Part shown: positions 9,699 through 13,681 of the stretch, piece by piece
How positions within the stretch are numbered: the first letter of the stretch is position 1
Layout of the letters: every line of letters starts with the position of its first letter
Assembly (NCBI GenBank): GCA_913051545.1
Contig: CAJXCD010000001.1
Span: 62,001-126,000, forward strand
Length of the DNA: 64,000 nt
Direction of reading: 5' to 3'
Source: an uncultured Chloroflexota bacterium
GTDB taxonomy: Bacteria; Chloroflexota; Dehalococcoidia; Lucifugimonadales; CAJXCD01
Notes under the pieces: generated by a model
Databases searched by the model: none
Told to the model about the DNA's origin: nothing
The model's input: the letters and a program-made list of their open reading frames with translations, nothing else
Position numbers and translations under genes: made by a program

Positions 9699-10325
9699 TC
9701 AATCGGGCAAATAATAGCTCCCTAAATTATCCAGTTCTGGATTCTTAGGAATAGCACCCTTGGAAGAAATGATGTCTACCCATGAAATTAAACGATCTTC
9801 AGGAATTGACCCTACCCAGCGGCTAACCACTATACCTGCATCATCTACGAAAAATGTTACTGGTAAACCTATCACTCCATATTCCACCGTTACACGTCCA
9901 TCGACATCTCTTCCGTTGGGGTAAGTTATTCCAAATTCTTCCAAATATTCTAAAGCCATAACTTCAGAATCTGGAATTATTGGCGTATCTATCCCTATAA
10001 AAATCACGTTGTTTTCACGGTATTTATTCCATGTATGCTCTAATCCTATAGCCTCATCTCGACATGGCTGGCACAGTGGGTTCCAAAAATTGATAACCAC
10101 CGAATTACCCACTAATTCAGACATAATGATCTCATCCCCACTGAAAAGCTGGAGCGTGAAATCAGGAGCAGTAGAACCCACTCTAGTAATCCCACTCATG
10201 CTAGTCACTGGCGATTTCGAAAAAATACCCCAGGACATTAACATTATGAAAATAATTACTGCGAACGTAATAAATCCGATTATTATCCAATGTAAGGAAC
10301 TCGTCACAACTTTAAAGCTCTCCAA
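9699..10325 (-). CDS. Membrane-anchored TlpA/ResA-like thioredoxin
   Basis: Thiol-disulfide oxidoreductase, 208 residues. An N-terminal helix around residues 13-33 (hydrophobic, beginning IIIGFITFAV) anchors it, and the rest should lie outside the membrane. The redox motif is Cys-Gln-Pro-Cys in NFWNPLCQPCRDEA, and the cis-proline region GLPVTFFVDDAG follows, both diagnostic of the TlpA/ResA branch. The start codon is TTG. It follows the sortase gene on the same strand with a 41 bp gap, so it may act on exported or wall-anchored proteins, but that link is only positional. The cytochrome c maturation role of ResA is possible but no cyt c genes are in the window. Confidence 0.85.
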   Translation of the reverse strand: MESFKVVTSSLHWIIIGFITFAVIIFIMLMSWGIFSKSPVTSMSGITRVGSTAPDFTLQLFSGDEIIMSELVGNSVVINFWNPLCQPCRDEAIGLEHTWNKYRENNVIFIGIDTPIIPDSEVMALEYLEEFGITYPNGRDVDGRVTVEYGVIGLPVTFFVDDAGIVVSRWVGSIPEDRLISWVDIISSKGAIPKNPELDNLGSYYLPD

Positions 10326-10366: not shown

Positions 10367-11662
10367 TTAAATCTGTACCACATCAACAAGTGCTGCAGTG
10401 ACCAATAGTCTTTTGTCATAATGGAATCTGGGCCAGCATGTTACCAGCGTTATATCACGCAAACCTGAATCTGTGATGAATAAATCTTCACCTGCGACCC
10501 ATTTTGTTTCATATACTTGGTACACATATCTCAAATTGGCTGCCTCAATCACAACCTGAATCGTTTCTCCATTTTGAAGAAGGGATGGAATTTCAGGTAA
10601 CCTATGAAATACGTTACCTCCCCCCAATACAGGACTTTCTAAATGACCGAAATACCACCCTTGTCCTCTCGCCCCAGGGTACGCAGTCGTGGGAATATGA
10701 CCAACAATATGTGTAGGGTTCTCCCAAACTAACTCATCACCTCCAGAGACTAATTCCAAATCTCTAACACCAGAATCAACCCCAATTGTTGGAATTAATA
10801 ACCGCCTAGCAGGCTGAATTCCATCACTGACCCCCGAGAATTTTGATGACTCTAATTGCAAGTCAACTATATCAGCCATAGATACAGATACATCCAAAGA
10901 ACTAGGATCAGCAGAGTACCCTGTTCTAGAATTAAGCGAAGATCCCAAATTAGTGTTGCCAGATTGACCCTCACTATCCACTTGGCTTAGTACCGGAGAT
11001 TCAATCGCACCCTCAGATTCTGCAGATACTCCATTAGAACTTTCCTGATGTAATTCTTCTGCCTTCAGAATATCGTCTTCATTACTCGTTACAGCAAACG
11101 ACTCCTCATCTATATCTTTAGAGCTGAAATGTCTTCCCAGAGATGTATCAACATCTTGAGTAGCGACATGGGCTTCTTCACGTTGAGAATCTATAAAATC
11201 TGATGAATTTGACATTGCGGTTGCTGTAGGGTTGGACTCGGAAGAAGAATCTTGAACTGTTGTGATTTGCTGAATATTGTATCGATCTGCTACTTCTTTA
11301 TCATGTAAATCATCGACATCACTTGATAAGCCGTCTTGTTCAAGATCATCCTGCTCAATTATTAATTCTACCCTAATCGAAGCAAAGTCCTCAGGCGCTT
11401 CACTAACAGGGCTGGAAGATCCTGATTGGTTATAAAAAGATGGTTTCGTTTGGTCGCGTGCAACCTGTAAATAGGAATTGGAAGGTCTCTCCAGCGAATA
11501 GTTTAGCTCTTGAATTTTTGAATCAGTCCAAACTCCATACCCTACGTAAGCAGCGGACAATGCCAAGAAGACTGTCCCCATAGACAGCAGTACAGCACCT
11601 ATCATCGCTTTGTGGGAATAAGCCCTAAGACGGAAAATCCGTAAAGTTATAAATCCAAACAT
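10367..11662 (-). CDS. Sortase with long acidic, serine-rich linker
   Basis: Cysteine transpeptidase, 431 residues. A membrane anchor sits at about residues 18-43. Residues 45-285 form a low-complexity Ser/Asp/Glu-rich stalk, and the sortase fold occupies residues 285-431. Catalytic residues are visible: His340 (YFGHLESP), Cys409 (TLVTCWP) and Arg418 (DKRLLVTAA). TLxTC is the standard active-site motif, and the overall layout resembles class D/E or F sortases rather than SrtA, but class is uncertain. No substrate with an LPxTG-like sorting signal was found in the window, so its targets are elsewhere or use a different signal. It is downstream of the SelW-like gene (139 bp gap) and upstream of a TlpA-like gene. 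Confidence 0.83.
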   Translation of the reverse strand: MFGFITLRIFRLRAYSHKAMIGAVLLSMGTVFLALSAAYVGYGVWTDSKIQELNYSLERPSNSYLQVARDQTKPSFYNQSGSSSPVSEAPEDFASIRVELIIEQDDLEQDGLSSDVDDLHDKEVADRYNIQQITTVQDSSSESNPTATAMSNSSDFIDSQREEAHVATQDVDTSLGRHFSSKDIDEESFAVTSNEDDILKAEELHQESSNGVSAESEGAIESPVLSQVDSEGQSGNTNLGSSLNSRTGYSADPSSLDVSVSMADIVDLQLESSKFSGVSDGIQPARRLLIPTIGVDSGVRDLELVSGGDELVWENPTHIVGHIPTTAYPGARGQGWYFGHLESPVLGGGNVFHRLPEIPSLLQNGETIQVVIEAANLRYVYQVYETKWVAGEDLFITDSGLRDITLVTCWPRFHYDKRLLVTAALVDVVQI

Positions 11663-11801: not shown

Positions 11802-12065
11802 TTATGCCGAAAGCCTCTCCTTTAAAACTGCTTTCATTTCCTTGACACGATCCAAATTCGGATGTCCACCCTCCTCTGCTTTGTCAAATATCTTGTCCCC
11901 GTCTATGAATACCTGCAATATACCGCTACCCCCAGGGGTTAGCCATATCGCAATATCACTACCACCTACAGCAAAAAACTCGTTGGCCATCCAGGCCGCC
12001 TCTGAGTGATACTCTCAAGGAACACAATACTTTATTTCGACGTTAATTTTACCTTCCATTACCAT
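11802..12065 (-). CDS. SelW/Rdx-family selenoprotein with in-frame TGA (CxxU)
   Basis: Small thioredoxin-like redox protein of the SelT/SelW/SelH (Rdx) family, 87 residues if the TGA at 12015-12017 is read as selenocysteine. The reading frame upstream of the TGA encodes VEIKYCVPU, placing the redox motif at Cys14-Val-Pro-Sec17, exactly where the family carries CxxC or CxxU. Downstream, PGGSGILQVFIDGDKIFDK and GGHPNLDRVKEM are the normal family core. An AGGAGG Shine-Dalgarno sequence (complement of 12072-12077) precedes a cluster of in-frame ATGs (12068, 12065, 12059); 12065 gives six-base spacing. A gene finder would report only a 62-residue fragment from 11990. Natural UGA decoding needs SelA, SelB, SelC and SelD, none of which is in the window. 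A nonsense mutation is possible but would have to hit precisely this codon. Confidence 0.78.
11978..12014 (-). promoter_or_regulatory. Candidate bacterial SECIS stem-loop after the TGA codon
   Basis: On the minus-strand RNA, 17 nt after the UGA, GGCC (11997-11994) can pair with GGCC (11988-11985) around a UGGAU loop. ACUC (12007-12004) can pair with GAGU (11981-11978) as an outer stem. The loop begins with U-G-G, and the distance fits known bacterial SECIS elements. The stems are only 4 bp each and an alternative GAGU/ACUC hairpin (12014-12004) competes, so structure is suggestive only. Confidence 0.45.
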
Positions 12066-12101
12066 CATAAGCCTCCTCGCTAAACATACTCACTCTACGA
12101 A

Positions 12102-12130
12102 AATCTAGCATTCTTCAACTTAAGTGTCAA
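12102..12130 (-). promoter_or_regulatory. Sigma-70-like promoter of the SelW-like gene
   Basis: Minus-strand TTGACA (12130-12125), a 17-bp spacer, then TAGATT (12107-12102). The start codon follows after about 36 bases that include AGGAGG. A perfect 10-bp palindrome, ATCTATAGAT, lies at 12134-12143 just upstream of the -35 and could be an operator. Consensus -35 and ideal spacing make this a good candidate. Confidence 0.55.
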
Positions 12131-12232: not shown

Positions 12233-13681
12233 CTACAGTACTCGGCTAAGGCTAGTATCACCCATGAGATATTCATCTATTCCACGAGCAGCTTCACGAC
12301 CTTCTGCTAAAGCCCAAACTACCAATGATTGACCACGGGTCATGTCGCCAGCGGAAAACACACCCTCAATATTGGTCATTTTATTCTCGTCTGTTGCAAC
12401 GTTACCACGGGGGTCTAAATTTACTTCTAGTTGAGATATCAATCCCTCATGTTTGGGATGTAAAAATCCCATCGCTAACAAGACTAATTCTGCTTTTATT
12501 TCGAATTCGCTCTCTGGTATTTCCTTCATGGTAGGCCTCCCAGATAAATCTGGTTCGCCCCACTCAATCCTAACACCTCTAAGACCTGCTAATTGGCCTT
12601 TTTCTCCATAAAATGACTTCGTTAATATGCCGTAGTCTCTTATACCACCCTCTTCATGTGCCGGAGAAGATCTTAATACGGCTGGCCACTGAGGCCAAGG
12701 ATTACTAAAATCCCTCTCATTCGGTGGTTCAGACAGCAATTCATATTGGTAAACTACCTCTGCACCCTGACGGTGAGCTGTACCTAAGCAGTCCGCACCA
12801 GTATCTCCACCACCTAAAATAACTACCCTTTTCCCCTCCGCAGTTATGCGGGGATCGGTACCAATATTATGCCCTGAATTCAGCAAATTCTGCTGAGTCA
12901 GGTAATCCATGGCAAAATGAACTCCATTTAAATCTCTACCCTCAAGACTCAGGTCTCTTGGTATTGTAGACCCTCCTGTTAGACACACTGCATCGAAACT
13001 CTCCATTAGTTCCTTGGTGGGAAAATCTACACCTACGTCAGTGTCCGGACGAAAATCAATACCCTCTTGAAGCAATTGATCTACTCTTCTATCTACAACA
13101 TGCTTGTCAAGTTTAAAATCGGGGATGCCGAACCGTAATAACCCTCCTATCGAATTATTCCTTTCAAATACCGTTACTGAATGGCCTCGATAATTTAATT
13201 GCTGTGCAGCAGATAACCCGGCTGGACCAGAACCAACGATCGCTATATGTTTACCAGTTCGCATCTTGGGTGGATTAGGTACAATCCATCCTTCTTTCCA
13301 AGCACGATCCGATATAGCTTTTTCAATATGTTCGATAGCAACAGGATCTTGGTTAATAGATAACACACAAGAAGCTTCACACGGAGCAGGACATATGCGA
13401 CCAGTGAATTCAGGAAAGCTATTTGTCGCATGCAACGCTTCTAAAGCATCCTTCCATCGTCCTTTATACACTAGGTCATTCCAATCAGGAATCAAGTTCC
13501 CCAATGGACATCCACTATGGCAGAATGGCACTGAGCAATTCATGCAACGGGAACCCTGATTCTTAGCATCATCCTCAGTCCAATTTTCGTAAAATTCGTC
13601 AAAATCATGGACTCTAAGCGCTACTGGACGCTTAGAAGGTAGTTTTCTATCAAATTCCATGAAACCGGTTGGCTTCCCCAT
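12233..13681 (-). CDS. gltD: Glutamate synthase (NADPH) small subunit
   Basis: Beta subunit of GOGAT, 482 residues, which passes electrons from NADPH through FAD and iron-sulfur clusters to the large subunit. The N-terminal cluster-binding cysteines are Cys46, Cys49, Cys54 and Cys58, and a second set is at Cys97, Cys101 and Cys105. The FAD-binding GSGPAG lies at 150-155, the NADPH-binding GGGDTGADC is near residue 290, and the C-terminal FAD contact is GVFSAGDMTRGQSLVVWA. It begins 11 bp after gltB, so the two are co-transcribed. Length is normal for the family. Other GltD-like flavoproteins exist, but the adjacency to gltB settles the assignment. Confidence 0.95.
   Translation of the reverse strand: MGKPTGFMEFDRKLPSKRPVALRVHDFDEFYENWTEDDAKNQGSRCMNCSVPFCHSGCPLGNLIPDWNDLVYKGRWKDALEALHATNSFPEFTGRICPAPCEASCVLSINQDPVAIEHIEKAISDRAWKEGWIVPNPPKMRTGKHIAIVGSGPAGLSAAQQLNYRGHSVTVFERNNSIGGLLRFGIPDFKLDKHVVDRRVDQLLQEGIDFRPDTDVGVDFPTKELMESFDAVCLTGGSTIPRDLSLEGRDLNGVHFAMDYLTQQNLLNSGHNIGTDPRITAEGKRVVILGGGDTGADCLGTAHRQGAEVVYQYELLSEPPNERDFSNPWPQWPAVLRSSPAHEEGGIRDYGILTKSFYGEKGQLAGLRGVRIEWGEPDLSGRPTMKEIPESEFEIKAELVLLAMGFLHPKHEGLISQLEVNLDPRGNVATDENKMTNIEGVFSAGDMTRGQSLVVWALAEGREAARGIDEYLMGDTSLSRVL

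Follow-up and report, generated by a model that had tools for sequence, protein, structure and literature searches.

A short Rdx-family gene on the minus strand of the window (the whole 64,000-nucleotide stretch of Chloroflexota DNA analysed, in whose positions window coordinates are given) is interrupted by one in-frame TGA, and the question is whether this codon stands for selenocysteine (Sec) or marks a damaged gene. Judged from the sequence, the gene, at 11802-12065, very probably encodes a small thioredoxin-fold, SelW-like redox protein of the Rdx family in which UGA 12017-12015 is decoded as Sec. This reading, already proposed in the initial annotation, is supported because TGA and Cys share one column among the homologues, because selection acts on both sides of the codon, because a SECIS-like hairpin behind it covaries at wobble positions, because selA, selB and selD are present, and because SelD has a TGA of its own.

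Translated from ATG 12068, the frame reads MMVMEGKINVEIKYCVP-TGA-EYHSEAAWMANEFF...RLSA-TAA, the TAA stop lying at 11804-11802. Its only internal TGA closes the motif Cys-Val-Pro-TGA (codons 12026-12015, with TGT 12024-12026 for the Cys), and the read-through product, MMVMEGKINVEIKYCVPUEYHSEAAWMANEFFAVGGSDIAIWLTPGGSGILQVFIDGDKIFDKAEEGGHPNLDRVKEMKAVLKERLSA, has a CxxU motif, CVPU, near its N-terminus. The initial annotation had described this frame, with TGA at the second redox position after Cys14, leaving the minus strand unstated, and the description holds. Three in-frame ATGs (12068, 12065 and 12059) follow a Shine-Dalgarno AGGAGG (12077-12072): the second is favored by its spacing of 6 nt and makes the Cys residue 14, and the third is slightly favored by the alignment of homologues. 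The promoter claimed in the initial annotation, TTGACA-17-TAGATT with a TG before the -10 element (12102-12130, minus strand), is a weak candidate, as 1.7 comparable sites are expected by chance in the stretch. A plain ORF finder, as had been foreseen, reports 62 aa (11990-11802) and loses the redox center.

On the same strand, gltB and gltD precede the SelW-like gene, and gltD, the glutamate synthase small subunit (12233-13681, minus strand; Pfam and tblastn), is also found near the SelW gene by tblastn in two related genomes, G300 and G305, which may simply reflect conserved gene order. Two genes from the SelW gene, also on the minus strand, 9699-10325 encodes a thioredoxin-like protein of the AhpC/TSA type, whose CxxC motif reads NPLCQPC. 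The minus-strand gene at 10367-11662 encodes a 431-aa protein that has, by our reading, a membrane segment at the N-terminus, then a long stretch of low complexity, and at the C-terminus a sortase domain (Pfam E 1.3e-13); the host is presumed to be a Chloroflexota bacterium. No convincing second selenoprotein emerged when the whole window was scanned for further frames interrupted by TGA.

The read-through protein is a member of the Rdx, or SelT-SelW-SelH, family: it matches Pfam Rdx (PF10262) with E=1.1e-14 and 54.8 bits (cut-off 22.6) and TIGR02174 CXXU_selWTH with 40.4 bits (cut-off 34.2), and presumably it has a redox role. Another Rdx gene of this genome, on contig C3, is of the CxxC form, with Cys at both places (YCTQC).

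Decoding of the UGA would call for a complete Sec apparatus, and the earlier expectation that the genome encodes SelABCD was borne out for selA (C2:63240-64574, 526.8 bits), selB (contig C5, 339.2 bits with its C-terminal piece) and selD (C3:95668-96591, L026, 380.9 bits), all above the curated cut-offs, and not for selC, the gene of tRNA-Sec, which was not found in the draft (92.4% completeness, 31 contigs). This selD contains one TGA, in the active-site motif NCAGU, so that a second gene in the genome needs Sec decoding. There are in fact two different selD genes, G000:C3:95668-96591 (L026) and G000:C31:5-814 (L027), each with an in-frame TGA in a CAGU motif; L027, truncated on a contig of 3.2 kb, may stem from contamination or from a second strain.

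The search for selC was negative by several routes. The best matches to Rfam RF01852 in the draft were mostly Ser and Leu tRNAs according to ARAGORN, a model built from the tRNA-Sec of 13 relatives gave nothing comparable in this genome, and an Rfam scan at E<=1 over the 20 kb around selA, selB and selD gave no tRNA-Sec. The relatives-based model found a strong tRNA-Sec in 18 of the 19 relatives searched, and tRNA-Sec with the anticodon TCA occurs in relatives. In the relatives that were read, selC often directly follows the thioredoxin gene trxA, and no close match to this neighbor occurs in the draft either; the best thioredoxin match, a 275-aa protein at 43% identity, is not the trxA ortholog. 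Because the draft is incomplete, nearly all relatives have selC, and its usual neighbor is missing too, its absence is most likely due to a gap in the assembly, and selC presumably exists in the unsequenced part of the genome. There is a slim chance that Sec is decoded with a tRNA too divergent for both Rfam and the own-order model. The initial annotation had named the absence of selB, selC or selD from a complete genome as one result that would speak against Sec, and this is not the situation found, the draft being incomplete, selC being nearly universal among the relatives, and its frequent neighbor trxA being missing as well.

Gene order around selC was also considered. G296 has the order speD-speB-nifS-hyp-trxA-selC, and speD-speB of the present genome stands at the end of contig C26; this synteny was dropped as evidence for a gap, as C26 continues into two tRNA-like sequences and not into nifS. 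A nifS-like cysteine desulfurase, a thioredoxin and selC occur together, in that order, at L160 (G296), L158 (G300), L161 (G298) and L076 (G125), possibly as a selenium or sulfur supply cluster.

The failure to find either selC or the adjacent trxA is also what would be seen if UGA had formerly been decoded as Sec in the lineage and selC had recently been lost from this species, leaving the gene and the machinery as relics. Such a loss is very unlikely: selA, selB and selD are intact, SelD keeps a TGA in its own active site and would itself be broken if selC were lost, and in a draft of this completeness and fragmentation the missing trxA neighbor points to a gap.

Among 294 genomes of the class, 109 gave matches to the SelW-like protein, and many of the best matches contain exactly one TGA within the match. 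As the initial annotation had suggested, homologues were aligned around this codon: about 40 of those fetched from the class have TGA at exactly the Sec codon (YC-x-x-TGA), and six from the same order (L047, L050, L051, L052, L053 and L054) have TGC or TGT there. The nearest homologue, in G300, shares 71% identity over 86 aa and has its TGA at this very codon, so that the TGA-containing frame is not a chance one; two public MAGs, one of Dehalococcoidia and one of Chloroflexota, are 61-62% identical and keep the TGA. After the TGA, pN is 0.18-0.27 against a pS of about 0.7-1.05, and the picture before it is similar, which indicates purifying selection on both sides. A TGA in a column where homologues have Cys, with conservation continuing beyond it, is the pattern of a selenoprotein gene. 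Two genomes, G014 and G050, have only Cys forms, as expected because both selA and tRNA-Sec are absent there; no selA match was obtained in three genomes with the TGA form, G212, G196 and G137 (drafts, 78-92% completeness). One genome, G230, has a Sec copy and a Cys copy of the gene next to each other (L041, G230:C1:121945-122512), possibly after duplication and a Sec-to-Cys change. No relatives of the protein were found in the viral contigs searched.

The sequence behind the UGA can form the predicted hairpin GGCC-UGGAU-GGCC (11985-11997, minus strand; apical loop 11993-11989), which begins 17 nt after the UGA and has its loop 21 nt after it. The published bacterial SECIS model (PMC13188914) has a loop of 3-9 nt with a G within the first two positions, a stem of 4-16 bp, a UGA-loop distance of 16-37 nt and an MFE of -7.5 or lower. 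With its 5-nt loop UGGAU, G at position 2, 4 bp and 21 nt, and with an MFE of -7.9 for the 24-nt region and -9.3 for the extended hairpin, the putative element agrees with this model. Of 43 TGA genes, 33 stay within the strict energy and loop limits of the model; the other 10, the genome's own SelD (L026) among them, do not. Because coding for GCN-TGG-ATG-GCN alone favors some pairing, each sequence was compared with 500 synonymous recodings; only 0.8% of them were as stable as the hairpin of this genome, and 24 of 26 Sec homologues had a hairpin that ranked within the most stable 5%, vs 2 of 7 Cys homologues, in which the stem is mostly broken. Across the 26 distinct Sec sequences, with the first base of the UGA as 0, pair 20-32, which joins two third codon positions, is C-G in 10, T-A in 5, A-T in 4 and G-C in 3, and pair 23-29 is C-G in 17 and T-A in 5; related sequences are counted together here, so that the numbers do not stand for independent events.

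These observations bear on the possibility that the gene is a pseudogene, namely an Rdx gene whose TGA stems from a nonsense mutation or from an error in sequencing, with which the missing selC would be in keeping. It is most improbable, since dozens of separate genomes of one class share this TGA, the gene is otherwise undamaged, selection persists downstream of the TGA, and the hairpin shows covariation; a frameshift reading was rejected on the same grounds. Recoding of UGA to Trp or Gly throughout the genome, or a UGA suppressor, would account for an internal TGA and is next to impossible, given that the column is Cys where it is not TGA, that the large neighboring ORFs (table 11) are uninterrupted by TGA, that Sec genes are present, and that in the relatives no UGA-reading tRNA other than that for Sec is indicated.

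If the UGA is read as Sec, as we infer that it is in the cell, SelD would make selenophosphate as in other bacteria, SelA would convert Ser-tRNA(Sec) to Sec-tRNA(Sec), and SelB would bind the hairpin just after the UGA and deliver the Sec-tRNA(Sec). In the finished protein, the CxxU pair would alternate between its reduced state and a selenenylsulfide. Within this class of Chloroflexota, SelW-like selenoproteins are widespread, and plain gene calling truncates their genes with loss of the redox motif. Furthermore, the exchange of Sec for Cys can be studied here in a clean natural series, with homologues of both kinds and with SECIS stems that covary and have mostly disappeared from the Cys forms.

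The gene adds a member to an already known kind of protein. The solved Rdx structures 2OJL, 2FA8, 2OKA and 2OBK match its product in sequence over about residues 4-76, and SelW-like CxxU proteins outnumbered all other selenoproteins in the metagenomes of the Sargasso Sea and GOS (PMC1088965, PMC2398784). A literature search of partial coverage found no description of SelW-like selenoproteins in this class. Like the marine bacterial proteins (PMC1088965, PMC2398784), that of the window combines the Rdx/SelW fold family, a CxxU motif and an in-frame UGA with a bacterial SECIS-like element after the Sec codon; unlike them, it comes from a Dehalococcoidia-related genome and adjoins gltBD. The eukaryotic SelW, SelT and SelH proteins have the CxxU redox motif and membership in TIGR02174 in common with it, but their SECIS lies in the 3' UTR, whereas the putative SECIS of the Chloroflexota gene lies inside the coding sequence, just after the UGA.
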